The position numbers and the translations under genes are program-made. From positions 1 to 40,695 of the IMG/VR virus record IMGVR_UViG_3300035701_000095: a stretch of 40,695 nucleotides of DNA. One strand, 5' to 3'. This document shows positions 8,063 through 40,494 of the stretch, piece by piece (positions within the stretch are counted from its first letter, which is position 1; each line of letters starts with the position of its first letter). The notes under the pieces were generated by a model. That model saw only the letters and a list, made by a program, of their open reading frames with translations. It searched no databases and had not been told where the DNA came from. Source of the stretch: a virus.

Positions 8063-10297
8063 ATGATTGTTGCAACAGGAACAAATCGTTTCAGCACCAA
8101 CTGGGTTAATCGTGGATTCAGTTGGGAAGGTCTTATCGATTACATGCGGAAGAATATTGTACAAACCCCCGAGACCCTCGACGAATATGAAGGGCTGGAT
8201 AAGGACACACGAATAAATGTGAAGGATGTCGGCGGAATCCTCGCGGGTAAACTTGTGGACGGCGAAACCCAGAGAAAAGAAGATAACATGGATACCGCCG
8301 AAATCCTTGTGCTGGATGCTGACAAAAACGTCCCCCAAGACTTTATTCAACGCGTGGACACATTAGGATGGTCATATATCACATATACGACACGCTCCCA
8401 CACAACCGAAAAGCCCCGGTGGCGATTGATCCTGCCGCTATCACGGGCGGTAACGGCGGAAGAATATAAACCTATGGCTTGTCGTATTGTCGAAGATCTT
8501 GGCGTCGAAATCTGCGGGTGCAGCTTTCGACTCAATCAGTTGATGTATTTCGGTAGCTATAGCAAAAACGGAAATCCTCCGTTGTTCAGATCACGATCTG
8601 GAAAAGTTGTCGATGTTGAAGATGCTCTTACGCGGCCATACAATCCGGAATTGTTCGAGGGCCGCATTACCATGGGAAAAAAAGGAAAGCTCGGCGATCC
8701 GCGATTGCTATCCGGTATCGTTGGCGCCTTTTGCCGGTGTTACAGCATCACAGAGACCATCACAAAATTTTTACCGGATGTATATGAAGCCACGTCCGAT
8801 CCGTACCGGTGGGGCAAGATTGGAGGAACGTCCGCGGGCTTGGTGATCTATGATAATGATTCTTGGTGTTATTCGTTTCACAGCGAACACGATCCCGCGG
8901 CCGAAGGAGGTCACGAACATAATTCTTTTAATCTGGTAAAAGTCCACAAATGGGGCAACGATTTCGTTGCCTGCTGCAAGTGGATCCGGCAATCCCTTCC
9001 TAATGTTGTCGCCGAAGATGCCAAAGCCGCGTTTCAACACGTTGAAGAGGTTGTCCAGAAAGAAACAAAAAAACGCGGTGATTGGGTCAAAGCTTTTGAA
9101 CGTGGCGACGCAGCCGAAGTTCTACCATCACCTTTGAACGCGTTGCTTGCCTTAACGCACGATGAAGCCCTTTCCGGCGTGGCTTATAATGACCTGAAGG
9201 AAACCATCGCTGTAACGACAAAGTTGCCTTGGCGCCCTGTTATGGACGGCCAATGGCATGATCAGGATGATCGGCAACTGGACCTGTATCTGACGAAAGA
9301 ATACAATCAGTTCAAAGTACGCGATATCGATAACGCTTTCACGTCTGCCTACATGGGTCGTCGTTTCAACCCGTTGCAAGATCGGTTGAATTCATTACCG
9401 GTATGGGACAGCATAAACCGCGTTGAAACCCTGTTCTGTGATCTTTTTGGCGCAGAAAATACACCAATCAACCGTATAATGACTCGAAAATGGCTTGCCG
9501 CTGCATATCAGCGCGCATTTAATCCCGGTATCAAATTTGATTCTATGATCGTTCTTTCCGGCCCAACCAACATTCAAAAAAGTCGGTCCATCAAAACATT
9601 GGCGTTGGGTTTTTCTACTGATACCGTGTCAGTTGCCGATATGGAAGACGGTAAAAAAGCAAGCGAAAAAGTTGTGGGAATCTGGATTGCTGAGCTCGGC
9701 GAACTCGTCGGCATGAAAAAAGCTGATAAAGAAGCCCTGAAGCTTTATCTTTCAACCGAATGTGATCGATACCGAGCTGCATACGGACGTTATGTCATCG
9801 ATCGACCACGGTTGACCTGTTTTATAGGAACTGATAATACAGGACTGGTTTTGACCGATGCCACAGGTAATAGAAGATTCTGGCCGATAGAATGTGTAGA
9901 TTTCAAAAAGGAACTCACTGAAGCGGAGGCCTTGCAGGTATGGGCAGAAGTGAAAGCCAAGTTCTCAACTGAAAACCTTTATCTTTCACGCGAAGAAGAA
10001 ACAATCGCCAATGGTATACGTGAAAACTTTTTTGACGTCAATCCGTGGGAAATAACCATCAAAGAATGGCTTGTCGAAGACGCAAAATCCGGCATTGAGG
10101 CTGCTACCGTTAAAAATATATGGGTAGAATGCCTGCATAAAACTTTTGGCGATATTACCATGAAAGACAAAACCGTTATTTCTGATATCATGTTACGGTT
10201 GACTGGACATAAAGCTCATAATGTGCGAACAGGTAAACGCGAAGAAAATAAATCCGTGTATGGTTGGAGCACTGGTGAAGTGGTGAAGTCTTGGTGA
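8063..10297 (+). CDS. Primase-helicase: AEP-like N-terminus with VapE (SF3-like) helicase
   Basis: 744 aa. The N-terminal 200 residues look like an archaeo-eukaryotic primase: LVLDAD with the D-x-D metal ligands, then TTRSHTTEKPRWRLILPL with the His/Arg cluster and RLNQLMYFGS. The C-terminal half is a virulence-associated E ATPase: P-loop GPTNIQKS near residue 500, Walker B region IWIAELGEL, and the family signature FIGTDN ... DATGNRRFWPIE. The P-loop is off-consensus, with QKS where GKS is usual. It should synthesise primers and unwind the origin. AAGGAG at 8050-8055 fixes the start. Its last codons lie inside the GGTGAAGT repeats of the candidate origin, so the gene and its probable binding sites are physically joined. 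Confidence 0.88.
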   Translation: MIVATGTNRFSTNWVNRGFSWEGLIDYMRKNIVQTPETLDEYEGLDKDTRINVKDVGGILAGKLVDGETQRKEDNMDTAEILVLDADKNVPQDFIQRVDTLGWSYITYTTRSHTTEKPRWRLILPLSRAVTAEEYKPMACRIVEDLGVEICGCSFRLNQLMYFGSYSKNGNPPLFRSRSGKVVDVEDALTRPYNPELFEGRITMGKKGKLGDPRLLSGIVGAFCRCYSITETITKFLPDVYEATSDPYRWGKIGGTSAGLVIYDNDSWCYSFHSEHDPAAEGGHEHNSFNLVKVHKWGNDFVACCKWIRQSLPNVVAEDAKAAFQHVEEVVQKETKKRGDWVKAFERGDAAEVLPSPLNALLALTHDEALSGVAYNDLKETIAVTTKLPWRPVMDGQWHDQDDRQLDLYLTKEYNQFKVRDIDNAFTSAYMGRRFNPLQDRLNSLPVWDSINRVETLFCDLFGAENTPINRIMTRKWLAAAYQRAFNPGIKFDSMIVLSGPTNIQKSRSIKTLALGFSTDTVSVADMEDGKKASEKVVGIWIAELGELVGMKKADKEALKLYLSTECDRYRAAYGRYVIDRPRLTCFIGTDNTGLVLTDATGNRRFWPIECVDFKKELTEAEALQVWAEVKAKFSTENLYLSREEETIANGIRENFFDVNPWEITIKEWLVEDAKSGIEAATVKNIWVECLHKTFGDITMKDKTVISDIMLRLTGHKAHNVRTGKREENKSVYGWSTGEVVKSW

Positions 10298-10476
10298 AGT
10301 TCTGGTGAAGGACTTAAGTTGTTGATTTTTATGTTTGGTGAAGTGGTGAAGTAGATAATAATAAGAGTACGACATGATATATATAAAAAGGAAAGACGTA
10401 CCCCCGCGTAGTATGTAAGAAAATCGACTTCACCACTTCACCACTATGAAAAATGGTGAAGTGGTGAAGTTCACCA
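10273..10476 (+). repeat. Iteron array and large inverted repeat, candidate replication origin
   Basis: The octamer GGTGAAGT or a one-base variant occurs at 10274, 10282, 10293, 10304, 10337, 10345, 10455 and 10463, and inverted at 10427 and 10435. A 17-mer TGGTGAAGTGGTGAAGT occurs exactly at 10273-10289, 10336-10352 and 10454-10470, and its exact reverse complement at 10427-10443, making a 17-bp perfect stem with a 10-nt loop. The copies flank an AT-rich stretch at about 10353-10426. The array starts inside the VapE helicase gene, as in SaPI-type satellites whose iterons lie at the 3' end of rep. Origin function is inferred; the repeats are seen directly. Confidence 0.7.
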
Positions 10477-10507
10477 AATAAAACCTTCAATATATATCGG
10501 TAAAATA

Positions 10508-10558
10508 TCAAACGGAGAATCCCATTTGATAAGTTCAAACGGAGAATTCGGTTTGATA
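10508..10558 (+). promoter_or_regulatory. Two tandem 24-bp operator-like imperfect palindromes
   Basis: Two units share TCAAACGGAGAAT, four variable bases, then TTTGATA: 10508-10531 and 10535-10558, 27 bp apart. Each is an imperfect dyad (TCAAA...TTTGA). A further partial half-site, GGTTTGAAA, starts at 10566. They lie in the 330-bp non-coding stretch between the iterons and the next small gene, where a repressor (for example one of the RHH proteins) or a second initiator could bind. The rest of 10298-10628 holds the iterons and AT-rich DNA; I see no gene in it. Confidence 0.5.
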
Positions 10559-10628
10559 GGTATCCGGTTTGAAATCTTAATAATCTTCTAATACCGCTTT
10601 CTTTGGTAAAAAAAAGGGAGGCTGAAAA

Positions 10629-10796
10629 ATGACACCAAAACGGATGGCAAAAGCAATGGAAATCGCCGATCGGCTGCTTCTGGAGCTGCAGAAACGTAAC
10701 AAACGGGTCCGGTATTCACTCGATCTTACTGGTGATATTCCGGTGCTCACTCTGTCATGTCCAAAAATCCCGTTGCGCGGGAGGGGGCTAAAATGA
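10629..10796 (+). CDS. Small hypothetical protein preceding the sigma-like gene
   Basis: 55 aa, a short gene. A GGGAGG ribosome binding site lies eight bases before the ATG. The N-terminus is basic and amphipathic (MTPKRMAKAMEIADRLLLEL), followed by QKRNKRVRYSLDLTGDIPVL. It ends in an ATGA overlap with the sigma-like gene, so the two are translationally coupled. No family is recognised. The coupling suggests it works with, or tunes the amount of, the sigma-like protein. Confidence 0.6.
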   Translation: MTPKRMAKAMEIADRLLLELQKRNKRVRYSLDLTGDIPVLTLSCPKIPLRGRGLK

Positions 10797-12827: not shown

Positions 12828-14282
12828 TTACCTCTTTGTCAATCTGTTGAACGATTCCTTAGTCGAAGAATATGTCGGTTGATTTGTTGCCGTGTCTCGT
12901 GATTCATGTGTCATCATTGACACATCGTTGTCCATGGATTTGGTATCGGCGCCCGCAACGAACGGATGGTTGCCGCTGCTGTCCGTGCTCATCATCAGTC
13001 CCGCGTCAACGCTGCCCTGCGCTGGTCCAACGGTGAATTCGTCATCCGGGATCATATTGAAGCGGTTCTGGAAATAATTCGGTGTGAACTTGACGCCGCA
13101 CTGGGTCAGGTATTGCGCCATTTGTGCGTCATCCACGGTTGGTGCCGGCGTGTCGATCATTTTGAAAACGGGCCGGATATCGCTTGACGCATAGTTGAGC
13201 TCATAGATCCATGATATCAGTGTGTTGAATACGTTCTCGATGATTTGCTTATCGCCATTCACGATGTCGCCGCGGACGTGTTCATGTACTTTACCAAGTG
13301 CGAATGAGCCGGCCCCTGATGCAGGTGCTTTCGTTGTGAGAGTCTGGCCTAATATGCCTATGGCGATTTCTTCGTTCATATGCTCGACGAACTGGTTGAA
13401 GATATCACCGGATGCCGTTTTGTTGACGTCGACGGTTTCGATTTTGAACTCGGACGGGTAAGCGACGACGCCGTCTTGCACGGTCTTATCCAGCATGTCA
13501 AGCATCTCCATGACACGCGCAGCCTGCGTACCCAACGGATATTCGGCTTTGATCCAAGGCTGTCCGAACTTCTCTGCAAACTCGGTCCAAAAGCGCAATC
13601 CCGCATGGCGGAACTTGACAGGCCAGTATACCACGGATCCCAGTGGCCGGCCATAAGGCCTCTCATATGATGCGCGAAACCGTGCCATGATGAACTTGTA
13701 ATTCGGGATTGGTTCGCCGGTAACCATATTCCTCTTTGTAAGATAGCGCCCTTCGTTCAAATCAGAAAATCGAAACCAGTCACAGTCCTTTGGCGCAATC
13801 TCCTTTGGCAAGAGGTTGCCTCCGACTTTCTCCCATATAATTTCGATTGGCAGATAACCGAAGAACACGCTGTATAATATTTCGTGGAGAATTTCCATCA
13901 TGGGCATGCCGGTGAGTATTGCATTGATGGTTTGGTATTGCCGGACGGCGCAATTATTTCTGTCCAGAGTCCATTTGAGTGACAGAGTGCCAGCGAAGCG
14001 TGACTCCAGACAGCCGTTCACATGGCTATCCTCAAGCAGGTATTTGTATTCCGCGATATCCTTGTTGAGCTTTCGCAGGGTCTCGGAAGGGTTGGGCAGG
14101 AAGCCCAGCACACGGTAATATGACCATGCGGTTTCACGGATCGCGATTTCCTGTTTCAACATGGCTTTGCTGTTGACCTGCTCTGATAATAGTTGATCGG
14201 GCTCATAAAAATTCATTGAGCCGCCTGAGGCCAATGGCATCTTGACAAAGCGCTGTGGCCGGAACATTTTATTTCTTCCCAT
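12828..14282 (-). CDS. Portal protein, Mu gp29 (DUF935) family
   Basis: 484 aa, close to the usual size of about 500. Family features: the DIAEYKYLLEDSHVNGCLESR block near residue 75-95, LSLKWTLDR, HEILYSVFFGYLPIEIIWEK, the RFSDLNEGRYL region, and the FGQPWIKAEYPLG and GILGQTLTTKA motifs of DUF935. The protein forms the dodecameric ring at one head vertex through which DNA enters. It is encoded downstream of the large terminase, as expected. The last about 70 residues are Ser/Thr/Asp-rich and look disordered. Confidence 0.9.
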   Translation of the reverse strand: MGRNKMFRPQRFVKMPLASGGSMNFYEPDQLLSEQVNSKAMLKQEIAIRETAWSYYRVLGFLPNPSETLRKLNKDIAEYKYLLEDSHVNGCLESRFAGTLSLKWTLDRNNCAVRQYQTINAILTGMPMMEILHEILYSVFFGYLPIEIIWEKVGGNLLPKEIAPKDCDWFRFSDLNEGRYLTKRNMVTGEPIPNYKFIMARFRASYERPYGRPLGSVVYWPVKFRHAGLRFWTEFAEKFGQPWIKAEYPLGTQAARVMEMLDMLDKTVQDGVVAYPSEFKIETVDVNKTASGDIFNQFVEHMNEEIAIGILGQTLTTKAPASGAGSFALGKVHEHVRGDIVNGDKQIIENVFNTLISWIYELNYASSDIRPVFKMIDTPAPTVDDAQMAQYLTQCGVKFTPNYFQNRFNMIPDDEFTVGPAQGSVDAGLMMSTDSSGNHPFVAGADTKSMDNDVSMMTHESRDTATNQPTYSSTKESFNRLTKR

Positions 14283-14297
14283 AGTATTTACTCCTTT

Positions 14298-14622
14298 TTA
14301 TATACGCATTTGAAAAATAGAACCAGTATCGGATTCGTCGTTGCTGTACATATTTGTTTTTATGCACACTGCAACGACGGTCCCATCGTAGGCCAGCGTT
14401 TCACCAACTGCTGCGCTTTTGGATAGCCATACCACAGTGCCACTGCCATGCGCGTACACGGCAATGTCTCCTCGCGCGCAATCCAGTACCAATATACCCA
14501 CGGGAGATCCCGTGGTGGATAAACCGTTATCGTTGGCACATACAACAGATCCCGCGGAAATGTCAATGGCGGCGCGTAAGATAGTGTTAAATGTTTGTCT
14601 ATAAAAAAAACTCGGTTTTCAT
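14298..14622 (-). pseudogene. Capsid decoration-like gene broken at a T8 tract
   Basis: On the minus strand, ATG at 14622 reads MKTEFFL then TAG within 24 nt. Removing one T from the T8 run (14603-14610 on the plus strand, as A8) gives a continuous 107-aa frame: MKTEFFYRQTFNTILRAAID, then SAGSVVCANDNGL..., AVGETLAYDGTVVAV and ending SIFQMRI. This resembles the decoration-like domains at 17402 and 20716 in length and in its Gly-rich turns. GGTG lies upstream of the ATG. The break may be a real loss, a sequencing or assembly indel, or slippage on T8. If translated only from the GTG at 14501, a 67-aa fragment results. Confidence 0.6.
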
Positions 14623-14627
14623 ATTTT

Positions 14628-15977
14628 TCACCAGAAGTTGGTTGTGACTTTTTCAGACTTATTTGTTCTTGGGTTGAATGCTACATCATGGTATGATCCA
14701 ATGTCGGATTCGATGGGATCATGCACTACACGTTTACTTAGGATAGACCGGTAATTCTGTGCGACCAATGGCACTGAACCGCTCAGGTAGATCAGACCTT
14801 GTGTCGAGGAATCCACGATGTCGTCGTTTTCGCCTGCCGGGAAGAGCGAGTGCTGATCGATAAATTGTTTGTTCCATTTTCCTTTAAGTAATTGCACCCT
14901 TCCCCTTTCGACTAAAGGGGTTATGGAGATGGCCCGGGATACTTTATCCTTGTCGGATTTGAACGGGAATACCGGCAGTGTGGTCTTCTGGAACATTTGG
15001 ATCAGGCTACTGCCGGATGCTTTGTCCTCTATAACAATCATATCCGGAGTATATCGATCGTATATACTTTGGGTGCGATCGATCAGATCTGGGAAGTTCC
15101 AATGGCCCACATAACAATCCGCGCAGATGAATTTGTCTTCGATCGTTTGCAGCCAATAGGTGATGGCCGAATAGTCTGCGGTGTCGGTATCTTTGAATGC
15201 GGTATCCGCCGACAGGATTTTCCGTTTGATCTTAAAGGCCTCAGGTAGCGCTTCAATGAATACCCACCAAGCTTCTTTAAACAGTTCGTCCGTGCCGATG
15301 TTGACGAACTGCGCGTTGATTTCTTGTTCCCGGATGGCCGCGGGGATTTCCTCTTCGAGATGTTTGATGTCGTCGGCCTTCAGAAACGGGTTGGCATAGC
15401 TGGTAACCTGATATGATTTGTATTCGTCGCTTATTTCGCAGCCCTTTTTCCAGAATGTAAAGAATAAATGTTCGGTGCCCTTCTTGTTCAGCTTGCCTTT
15501 TGGTGTGCCGACCATTACGACTTTTTCACAATAGTCAAGTGTCATGGGCGCCAAGGTGTTATACCAGAGCGCGTCACCGGGGAGGAAGATGATGCCGGCT
15601 TCATTACAAATGATAATGTGGTACGCGAAGCCTTCGATGTTCTCCGGTCGCTCTGCCGAGCGCATGACCATCAGGCCCTGCAGCAGGTGCAGTTCTTTTT
15701 TCTGCTCATTCCATTTCCAGTATTGAGATTTAATCTGTGAAATAATTGGCAGGAAATACCGGTCCCAGTATGCGCTCAGGTTGGCTTGGATGGTGTCGAC
15801 CCATAATATGCTCTTGCCTTCGAGAAGCTTTTCGATCACGAAATTTACGGCGCCGGTTGTGCCCCCCGCCCGCCTGCCCTTGGCGAACAGGACGATCTTA
15901 TGCGGATCCTCGAAGACCGTTTCCTGGATTGGCGTAATGGTGAGCTGCAGTGGCTCCCCGGTTTTGGTGATCTCCAT
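14628..15977 (-). CDS. terL: Terminase large subunit
   Basis: 449 aa. ATPase domain: Walker A KGRRAGGTTG (33-42, an unusual but known terminase form), Walker B IIICNEA (121-127), and the coupling motif VGTPKG (156-161). Nuclease domain: LSADTAF (D258), IVIEDKASG (E317, D318) and NDDIVDS (D385/D386), the three acidic clusters of the RNase H-like fold. It pumps DNA into the prohead through the portal and cuts it. It starts directly after the small subunit stop (TAA then ATG). Both lie at the head of the minus-strand cluster, opposite to the rest of the virion genes. Confidence 0.92.
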   Translation of the reverse strand: MEITKTGEPLQLTITPIQETVFEDPHKIVLFAKGRRAGGTTGAVNFVIEKLLEGKSILWVDTIQANLSAYWDRYFLPIISQIKSQYWKWNEQKKELHLLQGLMVMRSAERPENIEGFAYHIIICNEAGIIFLPGDALWYNTLAPMTLDYCEKVVMVGTPKGKLNKKGTEHLFFTFWKKGCEISDEYKSYQVTSYANPFLKADDIKHLEEEIPAAIREQEINAQFVNIGTDELFKEAWWVFIEALPEAFKIKRKILSADTAFKDTDTADYSAITYWLQTIEDKFICADCYVGHWNFPDLIDRTQSIYDRYTPDMIVIEDKASGSSLIQMFQKTTLPVFPFKSDKDKVSRAISITPLVERGRVQLLKGKWNKQFIDQHSLFPAGENDDIVDSSTQGLIYLSGSVPLVAQNYRSILSKRVVHDPIESDIGSYHDVAFNPRTNKSEKVTTNFW

Positions 15978-16346
15978 TTACTCAGCAGCCTTGGTTCCGA
16001 CGATGTTTTTGACGATGTTGACCGCGATCTGCCCGGACACACCTACGCTACCGCCAAGGTTAAGAGAAGCTTCTTTTGGTTGCCATCTATCTGACAGCCT
16101 GTTCTCCAACCAATATTTTATGCAGGGCCAATCGCCAGACGCGATTCGGTCCTTCAATTTGCTCTCAACCTTGTCATCAAACGAGGCTTCCACGTCTTCA
16201 CATTGCTGTTTGAACCACGGATCATTGCGCCGCCATTGTCCGTAAGTTGTTCTGCTAATTGGAGTTCTGACGCATGCGTTAGAAATATTGCAGCATTCCT
16301 CGGCATAAAAACGTAGAAAGTTCTCTTTCTTGGGGTTAATTCGCAT
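15978..16346 (-). CDS. terS: Terminase small subunit (putative)
   Basis: 122 aa. The N-terminus has the helix-turn-helix-like pattern of small terminases: NFLRFYAEECCNISNACVRT ... ISRTTYGQWRRNDPWFKQ, followed by an acidic helix (DVEASFDDKVESKL). It would recognise the packaging site and bring in the large subunit. AGGAG lies upstream of the ATG at 16346, and the large subunit follows without a gap. The call rests on this pattern and on position. Confidence 0.78.
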   Translation of the reverse strand: MRINPKKENFLRFYAEECCNISNACVRTPISRTTYGQWRRNDPWFKQQCEDVEASFDDKVESKLKDRIASGDWPCIKYWLENRLSDRWQPKEASLNLGGSVGVSGQIAVNIVKNIVGTKAAE

Positions 16347-16462: not shown

Positions 16463-17401
16463 TTGCCATTCAAAACGGAACATTCGGTCCGAGTTAAGCA
16501 GCCGAAGGGGTATTCCAGGTACAGACGGAAGAATCTTACGAGAGGTGTTGACGCTATCCTTGGGTTTAAAAAGGGCGGTGGATCTGAGATTCAAGCCCTC
16601 CGTTTTGATAAAGAAAAGTTCACGCCTGAAGAAGCCGCGGCTTGGGCGAAGAAACATGGGCACACTGGATCACTGCATCCGGCCCAAAAGTCTGATAACA
16701 TGTCGGTAGCTGATGTGAGTGTACGCATGCCGGTCAAAAACATATCAGTGAAATACGGCAACCAACCCGGGGCCGTAGGGGAAGGCACGATGCCCGAGAT
16801 GGGGCAGGCTGGTCCCGGGCAAGGCATGGGTTACATTAAGTTTCCGCCTGACGCCGGTCCGAAGCATATCAGTCTGGAGCCTAATGCAGTTACCTACGGT
16901 GAGCTCCACAATCCACAACTCGACATTCCGGCCGGCACGGCCGTTGGTGTTGTCCGGTCAATGCCCAGACCAGTTGTTGCCGATCCTAAATCATCTCTCA
17001 CTGACATCGAAACCAAGCAGAAACAAGTTCCCACGAGCCAAGACATTCATACCCTTGAGTCGGTCGAAGAGCAGAAGGACCTTTCGGGAATCACCTACGG
17101 GACCGCCGCGTATCCATATGACGTGATCACGCGTAAGCCGATGTATGGGCTGCAGCGTTCGATACCAACATCGTATGCAGAGGCCGGTAGTTCCGGGTTG
17201 GACGAAGATCCGGAGTGGGACGATATCCTTGATTTGGTGACTGACAAAGACATTGATGGCGATGAATTTCTTATTGGCGCAAAGCACGAGCTCGAGCATA
17301 CCGATGATCGGAACAAAGCTGCGAAAGTCGCACTCGATCACCTGATAGAAATACCCGATTATTATTCTCGTTTGTTAAAGGCCTTTCCAGAGGAGAAATA
17401 A
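16463..17401 (+). CDS. Head-region protein with C-terminal DUF5661-like domain
   Basis: 312 aa starting at TTG 16463, six bases after AGGGG; no ATG fits. The N-terminal part has SEIQALRFDKEKFTPEEAAA and WAKKHGH, a motif seen in phage prohead or capsid-associated proteins. The middle is Gly/Pro-rich and probably flexible. The C-terminal 60 residues (FLIGAKHELEHTDDRNKAAK then ALDHLIEIPDYY) match DUF5661, a small helical domain of unknown function. The decoration gene follows with no gap. Likely a minor head or maturation protein. Confidence 0.6.
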   Translation: MPFKTEHSVRVKQPKGYSRYRRKNLTRGVDAILGFKKGGGSEIQALRFDKEKFTPEEAAAWAKKHGHTGSLHPAQKSDNMSVADVSVRMPVKNISVKYGNQPGAVGEGTMPEMGQAGPGQGMGYIKFPPDAGPKHISLEPNAVTYGELHNPQLDIPAGTAVGVVRSMPRPVVADPKSSLTDIETKQKQVPTSQDIHTLESVEEQKDLSGITYGTAAYPYDVITRKPMYGLQRSIPTSYAEAGSSGLDEDPEWDDILDLVTDKDIDGDEFLIGAKHELEHTDDRNKAAKVALDHLIEIPDYYSRLLKAFPEEK

Positions 17402-18178
17402 ATGGCGTCCCAAGAAATGTATTTTGCCGAAACTTTTCGCTCGAAGCAGGATCTCGCGGGTATTTCGCAGAGATTTGTGGTTATAGATTCGACGGGTCGC
17501 ATATCTCTGGCAACAGCTGGATCATATGCCGAAGGAATTCTCGAAAACACGCCGACACCTGGTGATATGCCGGGGGTCGTATCGTTTTTGGGCATCACGA
17601 AAATTACGGTTGATGGCGCTTACCCAATAGGAACTTTTATTGTGCCGACGACGAACGGCGTTGGTACGCAGGCCACATACATCACATATCCATATGTACG
17701 TGGCAAATTGCTCGAGGCTTCGGACGCGTCTGGCGACATTGTGACAATGCGCTTTATAGATGAGGTTGTGGGATCAGGGTTGACCGGTGTGATGGGACCA
17801 CAGGGATCCACGGGTGTGGGTTACACTGGAGTTGCAGGTGCCACAGGTCTACAGGGTGCTGTTGGGCAAACCGGAGCGTTTGGACAGACCGGATTGCAGG
17901 GTGCCATTGGTGGAACTGGAGTTGCAGGTCAGACTGGAGTTGCAGGTGCTGTTGGCGAAACCGGAGTTGCAGGTCAAACTGGAGTTGCAGGCGCTGTTGG
18001 CGGAACCGGAGTTGCAGGCGCTGTTGGAGGAACCGGAGTTGCTGGCGCTGTTGGGGGAACCGGAGTTGCTGGTCAGACCGGAATTCAGGGTGAGACTGGG
18101 TTGACAGGTAATACTGGAGTTCAAGGGGAGACCGGGTTGATGGGTAATACTGGAGTTCAAGGGGAGACTGGAATATAA
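17402..18178 (+). CDS. Capsid decoration-like protein with C-terminal collagen-like tail
   Basis: 258 aa. Residues 1-about 126 resemble the decoration-like protein at 20716: [20 protein letters not shown] here against [20 protein letters not shown] there, then YLGVTKLTVD / [10 protein letters not shown]. Residues about 128-258 are Gly-X-Y triplets ([16 protein letters not shown] and so on), Thr-rich at Y and without a C-terminal cap: the collagen run ends at the stop codon. The likely product is a capsid-surface protein carrying a collagen-like fibre. AGAGGAG lies six bases before the ATG. The DNA of the tail is a minisatellite, so length can change. Confidence 0.7.
17981..18175 (+). repeat. 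Minisatellite encoding the collagen-like tail of the decoration protein
   Basis: Three consecutive 27-bp units begin at GGAGTTGC (17981, 18008, 18035) and run to 18061, each encoding GVAGAVGGT-type triplets; related units start at 17918, 17936, 17963 and 18062. From about 18091 a 36-bp unit (starting GAGACTGGGTTGACAGG) is repeated to the stop. All periods are multiples of 9, so gain or loss of a unit keeps the frame. Confidence 0.8.
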
Positions 18179-18182
18179 CCCC

Positions 18183-20696
18183 ATGAAACAGCTGGTGTTT
18201 ATACGACATGGTGACACCGAGCTGAATGATGAACATAAGATTCGCGCTTGGACCGATGTTCCCCTGAATGTAAAGGGTCAGGAGCAAGCAAAAAAAGTCG
18301 GAGAAACGCTGAAACACAGCTCTATCGACTTGATATACAGTAGTGATCTGGATCGCGCACATAGCACGGCAGATGCAATAAATCTTGCAACTGAAACTCC
18401 GGTGGTAATAGATCCGGACATGCGGCCTTGGAATCTTGGAGTTTTTACCGGTCATCCGCAGGAAGAAGTGGCAAAACTGCTGCCGGCATTTTTGGATGAG
18501 CCCTTTAAAGATATAGATGGAGGAGAATCGTTTAATACATTCCGGAACCGCTTTCTCGGCAAGATTGATCAGCTGATGAACACGTATCCGGACAAAACGC
18601 TCGCGATAGTGGCCCATCACAGGAATGACCGGGCGTTGCGGGCGTGGGAAGCGGCGGGCTTTCCGAGTGATTTAAGTGTTGACCCGAAAGTGTTTCTTGA
18701 CAAAGGCATAGTTGAACCGGGGGACCATTACGTCATGACAATTGAAAAGAACAAGAATTTTACAGAAGATCATGCCGAGTACAAGGTTGAATCGGCAGAA
18801 CTGCTTGCCAAGAAACCACAAACCACGGTGGCCATGGGTGTGGGAATCGCGGCTGATCGGGCATTGACTGATCTGCCCCCGCACAACATTAAGCAGGATG
18901 TACGTGGCGAATTGATGATGAAGCGTGACGAGCCGATTTTTAACGAGACTGACGATGAGGATGACGACGAACTCAAGGACGGAGATTGGGTTTCCGCGTT
19001 TCGGTCCGGTTTGCATACCGATAGCGATGGTGTTGCCCATTTATGGGAAGTGCCGGATTTACAGATAATAGCGCAGCAATATAATAAAGCCGTTGAGCCG
19101 GGTAATCCCGAGCGGCATGTGGCGCCGGTTGTGCTTGGTCATCCGAAGGATGATTCGCCGGCGTACGGGTGGATCAGCAAAGCCAAAGCGGTCGGCGATA
19201 AACTGTATCTCAAACTTTCAGAGATGCAACCTGAATTCGTGGATGCTTTGAAACGAGGGCTTTACAAAACGAGATCAATATCTCTTTATCCGGATTTGAA
19301 CATCCGTCATATTGGATTTCTCGGCGGCTCGGTGCCGGCCGTGAAGGGTCTTGGTCCGTTCAAATTTGCGGAGACAAAAGAATATAAAACCTACGAATTT
19401 GAGGAGAAAACCATGGTCGATGTGAATGAGCTTAAACAGGAAAACACATTTTTCAAAAGGCTTTTCTCGCTTTTCAAGATCGATGTGGATAAGGTTCGAG
19501 ACTTCAAGGAAGGCACATCGAGCACCATTCAAACCGCGGATCAACCCGTACCCTATAAGACAATTGACAATAAATATCCACAAGGAGCGACCATGGCTGA
19601 ATCAATGATAAAGCCCGCCGATCATATGAAATATGCGAAGAGTTATCTCGATAAAATGAAATCGCATATGGATGCGGCAGGTGCGAACGAAGGCAAGCCC
19701 GACATCGGCACGGCCGTTGCCGGGGAAACGGGGCAGGACATTTCATCGCATAAAGAGTCCGCGACCGAATTTGGCCGGCTTGCGATGCATCACATGAGCC
19801 AGGCGTGCGAGCATATGTATGCCGTACTGGGCGGACAGGCCACGGCGTCCAGCAATGCGCCCATGGACCATAAAGAGTCCGAAGTAAAGCCCGAGGAGAA
19901 AAAGGTTGAGGAAAAGTCAGCAGAAAAGCCTGCAGATCATGCCGAGCCTATTCCTCCGTCCAGCAAAAGTATTGACGCGTTAACGCATAAAGAACTCCTG
20001 CACGCTGCTTCTCATTATATGGGATTGGCGCAGGGCAGTGGTACGGACCATTGCAAAATGTACGAACATTTATCAAAGGTGTTTGCACACCTGGAGAAGG
20101 CCATCGTGAGCGGAAATTTTGTTGAAACCAAACAGATCCCGATTTTGGACATTAAGGCCGACAAGGATAAGATCACGGAGCTTGAGAAAGAAATATCCAT
20201 GCTGAAGGAAGAATGCAAAAAGCTTCAGCTTGAAAACGAAAAATTACTGGCCGCGCAGGCCCAGAAACAGGAGCAACAGGCTATGGGTTCTTACAAAGAA
20301 TTTTGCGAATCGCTCGTCGCAGAAGGCCGTCTGCGTCCTGTCGATGTCGAGGCAACGGTCACCAATCTCAAGGCCCGGGAAGAGATGAGCAAAAAGGAAA
20401 CAGCCGATTTCTCGGAAGGCAAGACAACAGTCCAGCCGACACGGGATTTCGTCGAAGAATATAAGAATTACCTCAGTGCTATGCCGAAGGTGGTGGAGAT
20501 GTCCGAGTTGATCACGGGCAGAGCGCCAGTCACGCAGACACCGGTCGATCAGGCCGTTGACTTTGTGGAAGCAGAGATCAAGAAACTGCAGGCGGCGAAA
20601 CCCAATCTCCCCTATCACGAGGCTTTACAGATAGTCAATGAACAGGCTCCCGATAAAGTCCGGTCTTATGTTGAGGCCGGCTTTGAGAGCAAATAA
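18183..20696 (+). CDS. Histidine phosphatase-like / Mu gpI-like protease / scaffold fusion
   Basis: 837 aa in one open frame. Residues 1-190 are a histidine phosphatase-like domain: FIRHGDTE (R8, H9), SSDLDRAHSTADAI (R58), and VAHH (H145). The acidic residue normally seen as Arg-Glu before the loop LG is replaced by Pro (RPWNLG, 81-86), so it may be inactive or altered. About 255-400 match Mu gpI-type prohead protease: dG-x-AHLWEVPDLQIIAQQYN, VVLGHPKDDSPAYGW (320 His), and RSISLYP (about 364-370). From 411 on is a scaffold-like region with a coiled coil (ELEKEISMLKEECKKLQLEN). It overlies two strong internal starts. It lies just before decoration and major capsid genes, the gpI position. Confidence 0.8.
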   Translation: MKQLVFIRHGDTELNDEHKIRAWTDVPLNVKGQEQAKKVGETLKHSSIDLIYSSDLDRAHSTADAINLATETPVVIDPDMRPWNLGVFTGHPQEEVAKLLPAFLDEPFKDIDGGESFNTFRNRFLGKIDQLMNTYPDKTLAIVAHHRNDRALRAWEAAGFPSDLSVDPKVFLDKGIVEPGDHYVMTIEKNKNFTEDHAEYKVESAELLAKKPQTTVAMGVGIAADRALTDLPPHNIKQDVRGELMMKRDEPIFNETDDEDDDELKDGDWVSAFRSGLHTDSDGVAHLWEVPDLQIIAQQYNKAVEPGNPERHVAPVVLGHPKDDSPAYGWISKAKAVGDKLYLKLSEMQPEFVDALKRGLYKTRSISLYPDLNIRHIGFLGGSVPAVKGLGPFKFAETKEYKTYEFEEKTMVDVNELKQENTFFKRLFSLFKIDVDKVRDFKEGTSSTIQTADQPVPYKTIDNKYPQGATMAESMIKPADHMKYAKSYLDKMKSHMDAAGANEGKPDIGTAVAGETGQDISSHKESATEFGRLAMHHMSQACEHMYAVLGGQATASSNAPMDHKESEVKPEEKKVEEKSAEKPADHAEPIPPSSKSIDALTHKELLHAASHYMGLAQGSGTDHCKMYEHLSKVFAHLEKAIVSGNFVETKQIPILDIKADKDKITELEKEISMLKEECKKLQLENEKLLAAQAQKQEQQAMGSYKEFCESLVAEGRLRPVDVEATVTNLKAREEMSKKETADFSEGKTTVQPTRDFVEEYKNYLSAMPKVVEMSELITGRAPVTQTPVDQAVDFVEAEIKKLQAAKPNLPYHEALQIVNEQAPDKVRSYVEAGFESK
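19413..20696 (+). CDS. Internal in-frame start: putative scaffold protein (427 aa)
   Basis: The ATG at 19413 (residue 411 of the fusion, MVDVNELKQE) is preceded by GAGGAG with six bases between, a strong ribosome binding site inside a gene. In Mu (genes I and Z) and lambda (C and Nu3) the scaffold is made from such an internal start in the protease gene. The protein from here is highly charged, with the coiled coil at about residues 660-700 of the fusion, as expected for a scaffold. Assignment rests on this parallel. Confidence 0.6.
   Translation: MVDVNELKQENTFFKRLFSLFKIDVDKVRDFKEGTSSTIQTADQPVPYKTIDNKYPQGATMAESMIKPADHMKYAKSYLDKMKSHMDAAGANEGKPDIGTAVAGETGQDISSHKESATEFGRLAMHHMSQACEHMYAVLGGQATASSNAPMDHKESEVKPEEKKVEEKSAEKPADHAEPIPPSSKSIDALTHKELLHAASHYMGLAQGSGTDHCKMYEHLSKVFAHLEKAIVSGNFVETKQIPILDIKADKDKITELEKEISMLKEECKKLQLENEKLLAAQAQKQEQQAMGSYKEFCESLVAEGRLRPVDVEATVTNLKAREEMSKKETADFSEGKTTVQPTRDFVEEYKNYLSAMPKVVEMSELITGRAPVTQTPVDQAVDFVEAEIKKLQAAKPNLPYHEALQIVNEQAPDKVRSYVEAGFESK
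19593..20696 (+). CDS. Second internal in-frame start: shorter scaffold (367 aa)
   Basis: AAGGAG (19582-19587) lies five bases before the ATG at 19593 (residue 471 of the fusion, MAESMIKPADHMKYAKSYLD). This would give a nested product lacking the first 60 residues of the longer scaffold. It may be the main scaffold start, or both may be used at different rates. Confidence 0.5.
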   Translation: MAESMIKPADHMKYAKSYLDKMKSHMDAAGANEGKPDIGTAVAGETGQDISSHKESATEFGRLAMHHMSQACEHMYAVLGGQATASSNAPMDHKESEVKPEEKKVEEKSAEKPADHAEPIPPSSKSIDALTHKELLHAASHYMGLAQGSGTDHCKMYEHLSKVFAHLEKAIVSGNFVETKQIPILDIKADKDKITELEKEISMLKEECKKLQLENEKLLAAQAQKQEQQAMGSYKEFCESLVAEGRLRPVDVEATVTNLKAREEMSKKETADFSEGKTTVQPTRDFVEEYKNYLSAMPKVVEMSELITGRAPVTQTPVDQAVDFVEAEIKKLQAAKPNLPYHEALQIVNEQAPDKVRSYVEAGFESK

Positions 20697-20715
20697 CCTT
20701 TAAGGAGAATTACAC

Positions 20716-21096
20716 ATGGCTGCACAGCTAAATTATCAGGCAGAATCATATCCGAGTGCGATTGATCTGTCGTCGGTAACGACGCCGTTATTCATGTCGT
20801 TGGACAGCACGGGCCGTGCAACGATCTGCAGTGCGTCGTCATACGCCGAGGGCATTCTCGAGAATGCGCCCCCTATCGCAAATGTTGCAACGATCAGTTA
20901 TCTGGGTGTGACCAAGTTGACGGTCGACGCTGCGTATGCACGCGGTACGTTTTTGATGTCCGGCGCCACAGGGATCGGAACGCAAGGATCCACCGGGGTG
21001 GGCGGGTATTCGCCTTTTACGCGGGCGGTAACGCTTGAAGATAGTTCCGCATCCGGTAACATCATCACCGTGCGTCTTGTCGACAGCAACAGGTAA
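20716..21096 (+). CDS. Capsid decoration-like protein
   Basis: 126 aa, Gly/Ala/Thr-rich and probably all beta. It shares the layout and several stretches with the first half of the 17402 protein ([20 protein letters not shown], then YLGVTKLTVDAAYARGTFL). It ends with the common TLEDSSASGNIITVRLVD. In other phages small proteins of this kind trim the capsid surface as trimers and lie just before the major capsid gene. A good AAGGAG precedes the ATG. Only a single GTQGSTGVGG hints at the collagen repeat. Confidence 0.65.
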   Translation: MAAQLNYQAESYPSAIDLSSVTTPLFMSLDSTGRATICSASSYAEGILENAPPIANVATISYLGVTKLTVDAAYARGTFLMSGATGIGTQGSTGVGGYSPFTRAVTLEDSSASGNIITVRLVDSNR

Positions 21097-21166
21097 ACAA
21101 AACCAGGATTACCGGGTCGCTAATCACCGATAATCTTTCAATTCAGATTGGCACAGGAGTTTACAC

Positions 21167-22201
21167 ATGAGTTTTCCATCTTCTTCCAGTATTCTGATAC
21201 GCGGCGCGTTGCAGAATGTCAGTGTATTGTACAGGAACGCCTCGTACATCGCCGATAGTATCTTCCCGCTTATCAACGGTCTGAATTACCAGACCAAAGT
21301 TCTTAAGTACGTGAAACATCCTTGGTTCGAATTGACCGAGAATGGATATCGGGCGGAGAATGCAACGGCAAACCGCGTGGACATGAAAGTCACGACACAG
21401 AATCTTGACCCACGCGAAATCGCGTTCGGTTCGGTCGTGTCTGACGAATTGTTTTTCGCGTCGAACCAACCCGGAAACCTGCCGGTACAACCGATTTCGG
21501 ATGCCATCCTTCTTATCTCTGATAAGATTGATCGGTTCCGCGAGAAGCTTGTTGCCGATACGATTTTCGGAACCAGCGACAAGTATCCGTCAATCACATG
21601 GGCGGATGGTGCGGTGGGCGGAACAGCGCCGCATGGTGGAGCCGGTGCGTGGGCATCGGATACCACGGCGAATTCATTGATCTACGATGTGCTCAATGCG
21701 CAGACCACGATCCTGAAGTCAACCGGCATGCTGCCGAACGTCCTTGAAATGGACTTCAACACATACCAGGCGATCAAGATCAATGCGACCGCGCAAGGTG
21801 GAATCTTTGACAGGATCAAGTACACACAGACGGCCGGCCCGGCCCAGATGACGGAAGGGCTGCTTGCCAGTTTGCTGGGTCTTGATCAGGTTATCGTCGG
21901 TAAAGCAATTTACACGACGGAGAAAGAGACTGCGGCGGGAACAATGACGAGTCCCCAGTTTATTTGGGATCCGTCCTCGACTGGAAAAGCCCTGTTGTTC
22001 TACCGGCCCGCTGCGGCAGGACTCAAACAGGTGTCGCCAGGGTACCAATATCGCGTGGCCTATGACGGGGCGACATGGAGACGGTTAATAAGTTACCGGG
22101 AAGAGTGGCAGCACCACAGCGTTTACGAAGTGAGCGAGTGGGTCGATATAGCGCCAGTTTCGACTGACGTTGGCTACCTTTTCACACGGACGTACGCATA
22201 A
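21167..22201 (+). CDS. Major capsid protein
   Basis: 344 aa, a normal size for an HK97-fold capsid protein. It follows protease/scaffold and decoration genes and precedes gp36, the Mu gpT position. Features: an N-terminal arm, TTQNLDPREIAFGSVVSDEL, a long spine-helix-like ISDKIDRFREKLVADTIFG, the P-domain region with NVLEMDFNTYQAIK, and a C-terminal VAYDGATWRRLISYREEWQH. CAGGAG precedes the ATG. Call is supported by position and general pattern; the exact family was not identified. Confidence 0.8.
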   Translation: MSFPSSSSILIRGALQNVSVLYRNASYIADSIFPLINGLNYQTKVLKYVKHPWFELTENGYRAENATANRVDMKVTTQNLDPREIAFGSVVSDELFFASNQPGNLPVQPISDAILLISDKIDRFREKLVADTIFGTSDKYPSITWADGAVGGTAPHGGAGAWASDTTANSLIYDVLNAQTTILKSTGMLPNVLEMDFNTYQAIKINATAQGGIFDRIKYTQTAGPAQMTEGLLASLLGLDQVIVGKAIYTTEKETAAGTMTSPQFIWDPSSTGKALLFYRPAAAGLKQVSPGYQYRVAYDGATWRRLISYREEWQHHSVYEVSEWVDIAPVSTDVGYLFTRTYA

Positions 22202-22701
22202 TGGATTACTGCTCTGAAGTTGACCTGAAAAACTATTTGCCGTCTGTTTACATACAACAGTTAACGGATGACAATTTTCAGGATCATATTGACCACGAGA
22301 AAGCCGCTGATTGCATCAGACGTGCCGGCGACTTTATCGATGGTTATCTTCAGGGTAGATATCCTGTACCGGCAATTGACCCGACAACGGGGTCAGTGCC
22401 AAACCTGATCCGTGATTTATGTACCCGGATTGGGATTTATTACTTGTTCCTCCGGGGCCTGACACAAACGGTCCCGGAGGCTCTTAAAGTGGATTACGAC
22501 ATGTGCATCAGGACTCTGGTGGGCATGCAGCAGGGTAAGATTAATGCATTTACGAAGGGTTCCGAGCCGGGATTTTTTGCGACGAACAAAACAAGTGCCA
22601 GCAGGCAATTTACGACGACACCGGTTCTGCCCCCGGTGACGCCGTCGATGACATTACCAACATTAACCGGGCAGAATAACTGGGCGCAGTATCCAATATG
22701 A
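22201..22701 (+). CDS. Mu gp36-like head-tail protein (DUF1320)
   Basis: 166 aa. The family pattern is a helical N-terminal CSEVDLKNYLPSVYIQQLTD, then RAGDFIDGYLQGRYPVP, LIRDLCTRIGIYYLFLRG, and a C-terminal tail. It acts between capsid and tail in Mu-like phages. The ATG overlaps the capsid stop as TAATG. Confidence 0.85.
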   Translation: MDYCSEVDLKNYLPSVYIQQLTDDNFQDHIDHEKAADCIRRAGDFIDGYLQGRYPVPAIDPTTGSVPNLIRDLCTRIGIYYLFLRGLTQTVPEALKVDYDMCIRTLVGMQQGKINAFTKGSEPGFFATNKTSASRQFTTTPVLPPVTPSMTLPTLTGQNNWAQYPI

Positions 22702-23249
22702 TACCCGAATTGCGATCTGGGGTGGTTGATTTTCTTAAGGGTCAGGGTCTGGATGTCAAAGAGTTTGGTAGTAAAGACCTTAAGAATCGAGTTTTGAATG
22801 TCAAAAAGCCCGCGGTTAATGTGATTATAAACCGGGCGTCGGCGTCAAAAGTTACCGGTTCGATGGTTGAGACCAGATATAAATATGTAATGATTCTCAG
22901 CCTGATCATTGTGGTTGAATGGGTACCGTCTGATCCGGTTGGGGAAGCCCGGAGACGGGAAGGATCAGAAAGGATAATCGAGGCCATCGGGGACAGTCTT
23001 GTCGGGCAGAATTTCGGTTTGGCATTAGAGAATCCGTTGCTCCCGATGGGCTTTAACAATATAACGACCAGTGATTGGCAGAATGCCGGTTACATGGTTT
23101 TTCAGCAGGATTTCTGGTGCAGTTATCTTATCGCAAAGATTGATCCGGATGTCCCGTTGATTAAAAATGTTTTGCTGGAATACTTTCTGAAACCGCAGGA
23201 TCCAGCGGCAGAGCCACCTCAAGCGGAAGATTTGATTGTCGTTTCATAA
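22698..23249 (+). CDS. Mu gp37-like protein (DUF1834), tail terminator type
   Basis: 183 aa. VLNVKKPAVNVIINRASASK ... YVMILSLIIVVEWVPSDPVG fits the beta-sandwich of gp37/DUF1834; members lie between gp36 and sheath and act in tail ending and head-tail joining. The start overlaps the gp36 stop by 4 nt. The C-terminus is extended by an acidic, Pro-rich segment (PQDPAAEPPQAED). Confidence 0.78.
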   Translation: MIPELRSGVVDFLKGQGLDVKEFGSKDLKNRVLNVKKPAVNVIINRASASKVTGSMVETRYKYVMILSLIIVVEWVPSDPVGEARRREGSERIIEAIGDSLVGQNFGLALENPLLPMGFNNITTSDWQNAGYMVFQQDFWCSYLIAKIDPDVPLIKNVLLEYFLKPQDPAAEPPQAEDLIVVS

Positions 23250-23270
23250 AAGTAAACGAAGGAGACAAGC

Positions 23271-24740
23271 ATGAGTTCTCTCAACATTACAACTGACCAG
23301 ATCCCGAACACAAGGGTTCCGGGATTTTACGGCCAGGAAAATACGAATAACGCGTTGCCGGGGCTGACTCCGCTGACAGATACCCTTTGTTTGCTTGCTC
23401 AGCGGTTGTCTGGTGGTACGGTGGCCGAAAAAGTACCCACCAAGGTATTCAGCGATGCGGATGCCGCGCTGTACTTCGGTATCGGATCTATTGCTCACTT
23501 GGCGGCACGCGCTGCTTTGCTAAGCAATCCGTACATCAATTTGACCATCTGCGGCATTGACGATGCTAACGGATCGGCTCCGGCTGTTGGCTCACTGGCC
23601 ATCACGGGACCAGCGGTCACGGCGGGTCAGTTTGATCTGTGGATCGGTGATCAGCATGTGTCGATTGGAGTATCCGCTGCGGAAACAGCTCTTGATATTG
23701 CAGGGGCTCTGCAGACGGCGCTCAATTCGATCCAGCAGCTCTTACCGTTGACGTCGTCACCTTCCAGCGCGACACTCGATTTTACTGCGCGTAACGCAGG
23801 TAATCTGGGTAATCAGATTCCGATTTCGGTCAAGACGAATTCCGGCACGACATTCACGATTACGCCGATGCAGTCTGGTAGCGGGGATCCTGATGTGGGG
23901 GATTATAGCACGGTTGGAACAGTGTTGGCTGCGGTGGTTGGTGGGGCATACACGGTTTATATCAGCACTCTGCCGGATGCCTCCAATCTCGGCAAGATCA
24001 AAACCATGATCACGTATGCGTCCAACCCGGTTGAACAGATGGGTTGCATTGCAGTGCTCGGGTATACCGACATGGTCGGAAATTATGCGGCATGCGAAAC
24101 TTTAGGCGGAACAACTCTCAACAACGGCCGCATGTCACTTGCATACATTGATTATACATCAGATAATCTTGCAAAGACTGAGCCCTGGAAGATCGGTGCT
24201 GCTTATGCCGCTCAGTTGGCCAGCACACCGGATCCTGCGATTCCTTATGACGGCTTGGTGCTTGCATCGGTTGCGGCGCCTTCCGTTGTCGATCGGTTCG
24301 TGTTCACCGTCAAGGACGATTTGCTCCATAACGGTGTAGCGCCGTTGGCAGTGGTTCCCGGTGAGCAGGTTGGAATCGTTCGTGCGATCAGCACGTATAC
24401 GATCAACAGTCAATCCGTGCCTGACCCGACGTTGCTTGACATTAACACAATGCGGACTCTTGACTATGTAAGAACACAGGTCCGTACGCGCCTGACGAAT
24501 GTCTTTCAACGCTCGAAGTTGAATGCCCGGACGATGCGGCTCATGCGGTCCGAAGTTCTCGATGTTCTCACGATTCTGCAGTCCGCGGAAATCGTGCAGA
24601 ATGTGCAGAAGTATGCGGCCGGGGTTTTGGTCGAGCAGGACTTGACGGATGTCACAAGAGTTGATGTACAGATCCCGACAAATATTGTCAGCGGTCTCCA
24701 CGTTATCGGGGCCGTGTTTAATCTCATCTTAGGAGTGTAA
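23271..24740 (+). CDS. Contractile tail sheath protein (Mu gpL type)
   Basis: 489 aa. The start IPNTRVPGFYGQEN, the insertion rich in Gly/Thr/Ser around residues 90-210, LPDASNLGKIKTMITYAS and the conserved C-terminal RLTNVFQRSKLNARTMRLMR belong to the Mu gpL/sheath type. The presence of a sheath makes the virion a myovirus. GAAGGAG precedes the ATG. The tube gene follows 4 nt after its stop. Confidence 0.85.
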   Translation: MSSLNITTDQIPNTRVPGFYGQENTNNALPGLTPLTDTLCLLAQRLSGGTVAEKVPTKVFSDADAALYFGIGSIAHLAARAALLSNPYINLTICGIDDANGSAPAVGSLAITGPAVTAGQFDLWIGDQHVSIGVSAAETALDIAGALQTALNSIQQLLPLTSSPSSATLDFTARNAGNLGNQIPISVKTNSGTTFTITPMQSGSGDPDVGDYSTVGTVLAAVVGGAYTVYISTLPDASNLGKIKTMITYASNPVEQMGCIAVLGYTDMVGNYAACETLGGTTLNNGRMSLAYIDYTSDNLAKTEPWKIGAAYAAQLASTPDPAIPYDGLVLASVAAPSVVDRFVFTVKDDLLHNGVAPLAVVPGEQVGIVRAISTYTINSQSVPDPTLLDINTMRTLDYVRTQVRTRLTNVFQRSKLNARTMRLMRSEVLDVLTILQSAEIVQNVQKYAAGVLVEQDLTDVTRVDVQIPTNIVSGLHVIGAVFNLILGV

Positions 24741-24744
24741 TACC

Positions 24745-25167
24745 ATGGCACTTTACATTACCCGTGCGGCGGTATCTATCAATGGCCCCCAAGGCTCGAC
24801 GACGGTGACTGATTTCAAAGCGGTCACGGAAAAAGCTCGCACAATCCGGAAACCGGTTCACTTGATGTATAAGACTGGTGCTGCCGAGCTTACACAGAGA
24901 TACGGTGTGGAATTGGATTATGTTGTTCCCCGTGACTCTGCGGAATTCAATTTCGCGGAGGTGACCGGAGGAACACTTGTAATCGACTACACTGATCCCG
25001 AAGCCAGTGCTGTTGCACACCAAGTTACCTTTGGCGGTGTGCATTGCCACACTATTGGTGATGCGATGGTGGATGGCGAGGCCGAACTGGTCCGCAAGGT
25101 CGAATTCATTTGCGAAAGTAGAAATACGAATGACGGATCAACTCCGTCGCCTGAGCTGGGCATGTAA
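24745..25167 (+). CDS. Tail tube protein
   Basis: 140 aa, beta-rich, directly after the sheath, the Mu gpM position. TRAAVSINGPQGSTTVTDFK at the N-terminus and VRKVEFICESRN at the C-terminus fit small tube proteins. It polymerises into the inner tube. GGAG lies nine bases upstream of the ATG. The chaperone gene follows with no gap (TAA then ATG). Confidence 0.75.
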   Translation: MALYITRAAVSINGPQGSTTVTDFKAVTEKARTIRKPVHLMYKTGAAELTQRYGVELDYVVPRDSAEFNFAEVTGGTLVIDYTDPEASAVAHQVTFGGVHCHTIGDAMVDGEAELVRKVEFICESRNTNDGSTPSPELGM

Positions 25168-25683
25168 ATGAGTGATCTTCTCCAGAAATTGAAGCTGGGA
25201 ACCGATCATGTAAAGCTGCTCGATTTCCCTGGTACGCAGACGAAAGTGGCGCTGCGGGTCTTGTCACAACAGGACCTGCAACTTGCCGCTTTCGCTACGG
25301 AGCGGCTTTTCAAATCGGAGAAGATCGAATTGAACATGGCGTCGGCCAATGAATACGATCAGGAGAAGGCCACGCAGATTTTGTTTTTAGCACTGCGCGA
25401 TCCAGAACATTTGGACCAACCAGTTGCGACATCGATTACAGAATTCAGAAAGTTGCTTACCAAGGATGAGAAAGAGTTTCTGATCGATGAATACCTGACG
25501 TTCGAAAAAGATGTCAGTCCTTCACCGGAGACACTATCGGGCGATGAGTTCGATCGAGTGGTCTCTGATTTAAAAAAAAAGCCAGACTCGATTACTTCGA
25601 GCAATTTCAGTACAGCCATGCTGAAAAAGCTTATTACTACTTTGGCAAGCCAGCCTGCGCTCTTACCGCAGGACAATGGTTAG
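25168..25683 (+). CDS. Tail assembly chaperone (short form), with programmed frameshift
   Basis: 171 aa in frame 0. It lies between tube and tape measure, the position of the gpG/gpGT proteins that load on the tape measure. It is rich in charged helices (LRVLSQQDLQLAAFATERLF). It carries an A9 run at 25572-25580 where a -1 shift gives a longer product (see the 25168-25757 entry). The last 34 residues are thus replaced in the long form. Confidence 0.82.
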   Translation: MSDLLQKLKLGTDHVKLLDFPGTQTKVALRVLSQQDLQLAAFATERLFKSEKIELNMASANEYDQEKATQILFLALRDPEHLDQPVATSITEFRKLLTKDEKEFLIDEYLTFEKDVSPSPETLSGDEFDRVVSDLKKKPDSITSSNFSTAMLKKLITTLASQPALLPQDNG

Positions 25684-25757
25684 TATTGATTGAGCTCGAA
25701 GCAGCTATCCGAGACCGCGCTGAGAATCCCGATAAACAAATAATTGTGAGGACGTGA
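25168..25757 (+). CDS. Tail assembly chaperone, -1 frameshift long form (G-T like)
   Basis: The slippery heptamer A AAA AAA, reading TTA AAA AAA AAG in frame 0, lies at 25572-25578. In the -1 frame the reading stays open from there for 58 codons (starting ARLDYFEQFQYSHAEKAYYY, then FGKPACALTAGQWL...) and stops at TGA 25755-25757, which overlaps the tape-measure ATG. The long form would be about 195 aa. A frameshift joining two chaperone parts in this place is conserved across long-tailed phages; Mu itself uses a -2 shift. Confidence 0.78.
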
Positions 25758-30528: not shown

Positions 30529-30905
30529 AATTTGCGATAACACAAGATCCTGAAACAGGGCTCGGCATGATGCAGCTTTCCGCGTCTACCGACATTCGCA
30601 CGGACATATACATGACGCTGAATACGCCGTACGGATCCTTTTTTCAGAATCGGGATTTCGGATTAAAAGGCATCACCAAGATTTCCGTGAGTAATATTCT
30701 CATTTTGAAGCAGAACATTGAGTCAGCATTAAAATGGATGGTTTTGACCGGGATCGCGACGAAAATCGATGTGATCGTCGAACCGGATTTGACGGATATC
30801 AATCGGCTCGATATCAAGGTCACGGCCACGCAGGCCAACGGATTTGTGGTGACCTATCAGCAATATTATGCGGTTGGCGGACCCAGTAAAGCAATAACAG
30901 TATAA
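30525..30905 (+). CDS. Mu gp46-like baseplate wedge protein (gp25/W type)
   Basis: 126 aa from the ATG at 30525 (an upstream in-frame ATG lies within gp45). TLNTPYGSFFQNRDFGLKGI fits gp46 family proteins, and the C-terminal LDIKVTATQANGFVVTYQQY is typical of this wedge type. It would join the hub to the wedge (gp47). It overlaps gp45 as ATGA. Confidence 0.82.
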   Translation: MKFAITQDPETGLGMMQLSASTDIRTDIYMTLNTPYGSFFQNRDFGLKGITKISVSNILILKQNIESALKWMVLTGIATKIDVIVEPDLTDINRLDIKVTATQANGFVVTYQQYYAVGGPSKAITV

Positions 30906-30916
30906 GGATAAAAATT

Positions 30917-38022: not shown

Positions 38023-40494
<2,472 letters not shown>

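Follow-up and report, generated by a model that had tools for sequence, protein, structure and literature searches.

A decoration-domain protein with a long collagen-like tail encoded in a phage head module: a candidate head fibre

We studied a gene (17402-18178) in the 40,695-nucleotide window that makes up the whole of the analysed stretch of IMG/VR virus record IMGVR_UViG_3300035701_000095. Its product joins a domain resembling a phage decoration protein to a long Gly-X-Y tail, which raises the question of whether the phage would carry collagen-like fibres on its head and, if so, how they would be held there. We estimate a probability of about 0.85 that the product is a head-fibre protein, in which a homotrimeric capsid cement domain anchors and nucleates a collagen-like fibre beside an untailed cement paralogue.

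The tailed gene and its untailed paralogue

The features of the gene and of its paralogue are the following:
17402-18178, plus strand: collagen-tailed decoration ORF, with its ATG at 17402 and its stop ending at 18178 (258 aa)
17402..17767, plus strand: decoration/cement domain, residues 1-122, assigned by paralogy, phrog_673 and the AlphaFold2 (AF2) fold
17777..18175, plus strand: Gly-X-Y collagen-like tail, residues 126-258, with 43 full triplets, one interruption and no tip domain
17885..18168, plus strand: tandem DNA repeats coding for the tail, with periods 45, 27, 36 and 18
20716-21096, plus strand: untailed paralogue, 126 aa, a predicted capsid cement protein, directly 5' of the major capsid gene

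The motif AGAGGAG stands 5' of the ATG at 17402. The first half of the protein matched the decoration-like protein encoded at 20716, as the initial annotation had noted: residues 1-121 were 44% identical to the 20716-21096 product over 125 columns (E 5e-33), and the Smith-Waterman score between the N-domain and this product was 249, against a mean of 32 and a maximum of 68 for shuffled sequences. A search of the phage's own genome found the domain at the 17402 and 20716 loci and nowhere else in the record.

The second half had been described as pure Gly-X-Y up to the stop, which is right save for one break. The tail consists of five triplets, a 'GV' with one residue missing (141-142), 38 triplets and a final 'GI' before the stop. 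Glycine occupied every third residue 40 successive times, the best among 20,000 residue shuffles being 14, and the Pfam Collagen model (PF01391) scored 56.9 bits on the protein versus a cut-off of 27.2. The tail contains a single proline and numerous Gly-Val-Ala and Gly-Ala-Val triplets, which makes the stability of a triple helix uncertain.

These same traits, the lone proline, the many Val and Ala residues and the internal interruption, together with a large change of tail length among relatives, would also fit a cement variant whose tail is a flexible, unfolded Gly-rich spacer, i.e., a disordered brush with no triple helix. We regard this explanation as unlikely: the run of 40 glycines goes far beyond the shuffles, the relatives described below keep a strict periodicity while their X and Y residues differ, Y positions are most often filled by Thr in six of the seven tails, and bacterial collagens need no hydroxyproline in order to fold.

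The tandem repeat DNA that had been noticed under the tail was confirmed, in blocks at 17885-18018 (period 45), 17977-18069 (period 27, 93% matches) and 18054-18168 (period 36). At its 3' end the array had a DNA identity of 69-78% with those of the collagen genes in the tail region (35.1-39.1 kb), which is compatible with exchange with those genes or with common codon and repeat constraints. A frameshifted tip beyond the stop was excluded, since the next gene begins 4 bases later and therefore leaves no space for a missed tip. The lack of a tip domain thus holds for this protein and fails as a general trait, since short tips close the C-termini of the tailed proteins in three relatives (L026, L019 and L006).

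Predicted fold and genomic setting of the N-terminal domain

An AF2 model of residues 1-126, computed as a monomer from an alignment of 19 relatives, reached a pLDDT of 88.3 and a pTM of 0.80; the 20716 product (pLDDT 88.7) gave the same list of structural matches. The best match was the HFTV1 capsid chain in 8qsy (VIA Z 15.8), followed by the Sf11 capsid chain (9ocb, Z 13.2) and the base of phi29 gp8.5 (6qyy, Z 13.1, 2.5 A across 109 residues). Lower matches were BB1 (Z 12.0), TW1, FCWL1, T1, XM1, Pam3 and E217, with P21 SHP and lambda gpD weak, and Foldseek gave E values of 3.6e-5 and 1.1e-4 between the model and the decoration fold of the gp8.5-base or CSP type. A tail-fibre attachment domain in the N-terminal half had been named as the result that would speak against a head fibre; instead, nearly all the top matches were capsid decoration proteins, the gp8.5 base among them, with unrelated entries from about Z 6. 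One tail appendage, phi29 gp12, was the exception, with the fold in its C-terminal part (Z 12.0); the fold alone is therefore no proof of a head location.

The HFTV1 capsid-stabilising protein (CSP, gp18) is a trimer placed on MCP trimers, with DALI likeness to 6QYY, TW1 and Pam3 (PMC12494034); the matched 8qsy chain is taken to be gp18 because these matches of its authors are the same set as ours. Phage phi29 gp8.5 is a homotrimer, whose base (residues 1-116) lies at quasi-three-fold positions and whose fibre comprises residues 117-280 (PMC6542822). Residues 8-124 of the model aligned with gp8.5 residues 3-118, and residue 126 is the first of the collagen; the alignment stops where the gp8.5 fibre begins, and therefore the collagen starts at the phi29 fibre start.

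The phrog_673 profile (head and packaging) matched the 17402 protein at 5.5e-10 as well as 18 of the 19 relatives, and PF09956 (Phage_cement_2) matched seven of the 19 (best 9.5e-10), with the homologue in phage Kovu above the cut-off. In the Pfam search of the 17402 protein the N-domain reached no cement model, PF09956 included, and the profile of the gp8.5 family (PF11133) was matched by one relative at 0.0039 and not by this protein. The sole match in the PDB sequence search was 6qyy, below threshold (E 0.17 and 0.12), which was a lead until the fold comparison.

The genes that follow on the same strand are:
18183..20696, plus strand: head maturation protease with an N-terminal histidine-phosphatase domain (phrog_976, 2.2e-55; PF00300, 5.7e-37)
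21167..22201, plus strand: major capsid protein, the likely binding surface (phrog_1005 major head protein, 4.9e-41)
from 22201, plus strand: Mu gp36-type adaptor

The plus-strand order is thus ORF 16463-17401, the tailed gene at 17402, the protease at 18183, the plain decoration gene at 20716, the capsid gene at 21167 and the adaptor at 22201, with the tailed gene inside the head module and two genes from the capsid gene. A homologue of the domain was found directly 5' of the major capsid gene in all five annotated phages (Kovu, ValentiniPuff, Sansa, CRP-6 and Ottawa), and it is annotated as a head fibre protein in Kovu and Ottawa; these matches are individually weak (E 8e-4 to about 3) and the position agrees in each.

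Other traits of the genome were observed. The portal, the terminase and a small terminase-position ORF (12828-16346) are encoded on the minus strand and point away from the plus-strand protease, capsid and tail genes (16463-31000), an arrangement also present in relatives. The counterparts of 16463-17401 and 18183-20696 form one fused ORF in relatives L005, L006, L019, L021 and L023, and in this record the collagen-tailed gene splits them. The PF00300 domain (18183-18640) is fused N-terminally to a Mu-type protease; it is also found in L021 (2627-5449) and had no match in L005. A baseplate wedge gene (phrog_203) is located at 129-734, apart from the remaining baseplate genes at about 28.6-32.0 kb, and no exact terminal overlap was found in the record. 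The tail-fibre region contains three more collagen-like genes (33411-35903, 36528-37211 and 38023-40494) with other N-termini and with C-terminal non-collagen ends.

These three genes match tail-fibre families. Along with the likeness of their arrays to the 3' end of the 17402 array and the presence of the decoration fold in phi29 gp12, this would suit a fibre of the neck, tail or baseplate in which a borrowed domain of the decoration type serves as the anchor. Such a fibre is very unlikely in our view, given that the 17402 gene belongs to the head module, with the terminase/portal genes on one side and the capsid genes on the other, that its paralogue and the distant homologues of the domain are capsid-adjacent, and that in two relatives (L027 and L028, see below) the tail sits on the capsid-adjacent copy itself. 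Moreover, phi29 gp12 has the fold at its C-terminus and not as an N-terminal anchor, and the N-termini of the tail-region collagen-like genes showed no clear likeness to the 17402 domain, which also supports a head location. The initial claim that the collagen fibres belong to the head and not to the tail is therefore supported by the fold, by the capsid-adjacent paralogue and homologues, and by the tailed capsid-adjacent gene of L027 and L028.

Tailed and plain copies in related phages

In the head module of six related IMG/VR phages, a decoration domain was followed by a collagen tail of 7 to 37 triplets. Both this record and L006 have a plain copy 5' of the capsid gene and a tailed copy 5' of the protease gene, and in L005, L019 and L026 the capsid gene lies between a plain copy on its 5' side and a tailed copy on its 3' side. 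A single copy was seen in L027 and L028, tailed and capsid-adjacent (5' of the capsid gene), and in L021 and L023, untailed, these counts covering genome fragments of the relatives, where a second copy elsewhere is possible; the fibre is therefore not obligatory in the group. L022 was left out of this comparison because its fragment ends just past the capsid gene.

The tails contained 43 full triplets in this record, 37 in L026, 32 in L019, 22 in L006, 17 in both L027 and L028 (leaving out four extra triplets within a domain loop) and 7 in L005. Non-collagen tips of about 42, 34 and 18 residues were present in L026, L006 and L019, respectively, and there was none in this record, L005, L027 and L028.

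Two further proteins of the relatives were observed. A decoration-domain protein in L014 (5631-6431) is extended at its C-terminus by about 140 non-collagen residues, so the domain carries other cargo too. L026 encodes another collagen-like protein (9545-10702, 385 aa) with an unrelated N-terminus, between gp37-like and tail sheath genes. As to the searches themselves, IMG/VR scans with the N-domain, either as a single protein or with two sequences, gave no matches, wider alignments being required; a scan with the capsid protein alone gave none either, and the collection of genomes by the capsid-protein profile added a single distant match, L025.

In a tree of the domain, the tailed copies of this record, L019, L026 and L005 clustered (88/91), the tailed copy of L006 grouped with the plain copies of L006 and L023 (87/93), and L027 and L028 formed a branch of their own. 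One ancestral fusion for all the tailed copies was rejected by the AU test (p 0.007, or 0.010 without L027 and L028), a result to be read with its 123 columns, short domain, long branches and a group defined by the trait and not by the tree. The simplest reading of these sequences would be repeated gain, loss or exchange of a collagen tail on the decoration domain.

A duplicated cement gene in which a minisatellite has expanded, yielding a degenerate or neutral product that does not act as a fibre, could account for the repeat DNA, the tail of only seven triplets in L005 and the lack of a tailed copy in the L021 and L023 fragments, and is nonetheless highly improbable, as the frame and start signals are intact, seven phages have tailed copies, the clade of this record, L019, L005 and L026 is supported, and the repeated origin of the tail suggests selection.

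Proposed head fibre and comparison with known systems

According to the head-fibre reading, the N-domain, of the kind of the gp8.5 base and the HFTV1 CSP, would form a homotrimer and bind the capsid exterior at three-fold or quasi-three-fold sites. All three C-termini would emerge jointly from this base and coil into a triple helix of the collagen type, giving a shaft that could reach about 38 nm (at 0.286 nm for each of 133 residues), and the N-terminal trimer would supply the nucleation needed by a collagen that has no C-terminal trimerisation domain. The 20716 paralogue would be an ordinary cement protein, so the capsid probably mixes plain and fibre-bearing trimers. A more tentative extension, perhaps somewhat doubtful, is a two-component coat in which the plain and tailed cement versions share sites and their ratio sets the fibre density, the tail having been gained or lost several times; in L027 and L028 every trimer would then be fibred and the capsid fully hairy.

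The most likely role, judging by analogy, would be weak reversible adhesion to the host or to surface glycans, or the control of particle aggregation. Adhesion roles have been proposed for the phi29 head fibres, T4 Hoc and SPP1 gp12, and neither the phi29 head fibres nor Hoc affect capsid stability (PMC7602432). Glycosylation of the Thr residues at Y positions is a speculation. If the head-fibre reading is true, the range of phage head fibres widens to include a long collagen shaft on a capsid anchor of the gp8.5 type, and the relatives provide a natural series in which one anchor bears fibres of 7 to 43 triplets with varying tip and copy number, which makes head-fibre function testable. The base would also be a small and probably self-trimerising one for collagen display on a capsid.

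A fibre on the capsid (phi29 gp8.5) and collagen on the capsid (SPP1 gp12) are known already; the combination of this anchor with collagen, the pairing of a plain with a tailed paralogue and the tail-length series are new. A literature search that covered few subscription papers found no description of a gp8.5-type anchor with a long collagen shaft. Phage phi29 gp8.5 (PDB 6QYY, 6QVK) resembles the 17402 protein in its N-terminal beta-rich base of about 116 residues, matching the predicted fold, in a C-terminal fibre starting from the aligned position and in overall size (280 versus 258 aa). However, its fibre is a helix-turn-helix supercoil instead of Gly-X-Y, and the genome studied here also has an untailed paralogue; because PF11133 is unmatched and the fibre is not helical, the 17402 protein is not to be classed in the gp8.5 family. 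HFTV1 gp18 (8QSY) has the closest predicted fold, and its gene number is the one just before that of capsid protein gp19, in line with the place of 20716 before the capsid gene, but it belongs to an archaeal virus, has no fibre and is only 12% identical.

SPP1 gp12 is a capsid-bound, trimeric and non-essential protein with a collagen-like segment, encoded next to the capsid gene (PMC6316719); binding to the capsid is likewise predicted for the 17402 protein. It differs in being 64 aa long, with a helical C-terminal part, binding at hexamer centres and a much shorter collagen (PMC6316719, PMC5292684), whereas the anchor of the 17402 protein is, by AF2, a beta-rich domain of 122 aa. The PF09956 (formerly DUF2190) and phrog_673 families include the sequence relatives of the N-domain, with capsid-adjacent genes, but their members in the annotated phages examined are untailed and the 17402 protein falls below the Pfam threshold. 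Finally, the phage-derived collagen-like proteins of E. coli (EPcl), the subject of PMC3368898, share a Gly-X-Y shaft without hydroxyproline; these phage and prophage proteins are assigned to side tail fibres, unlike the 17402 protein, whose predicted anchor is a capsid domain.
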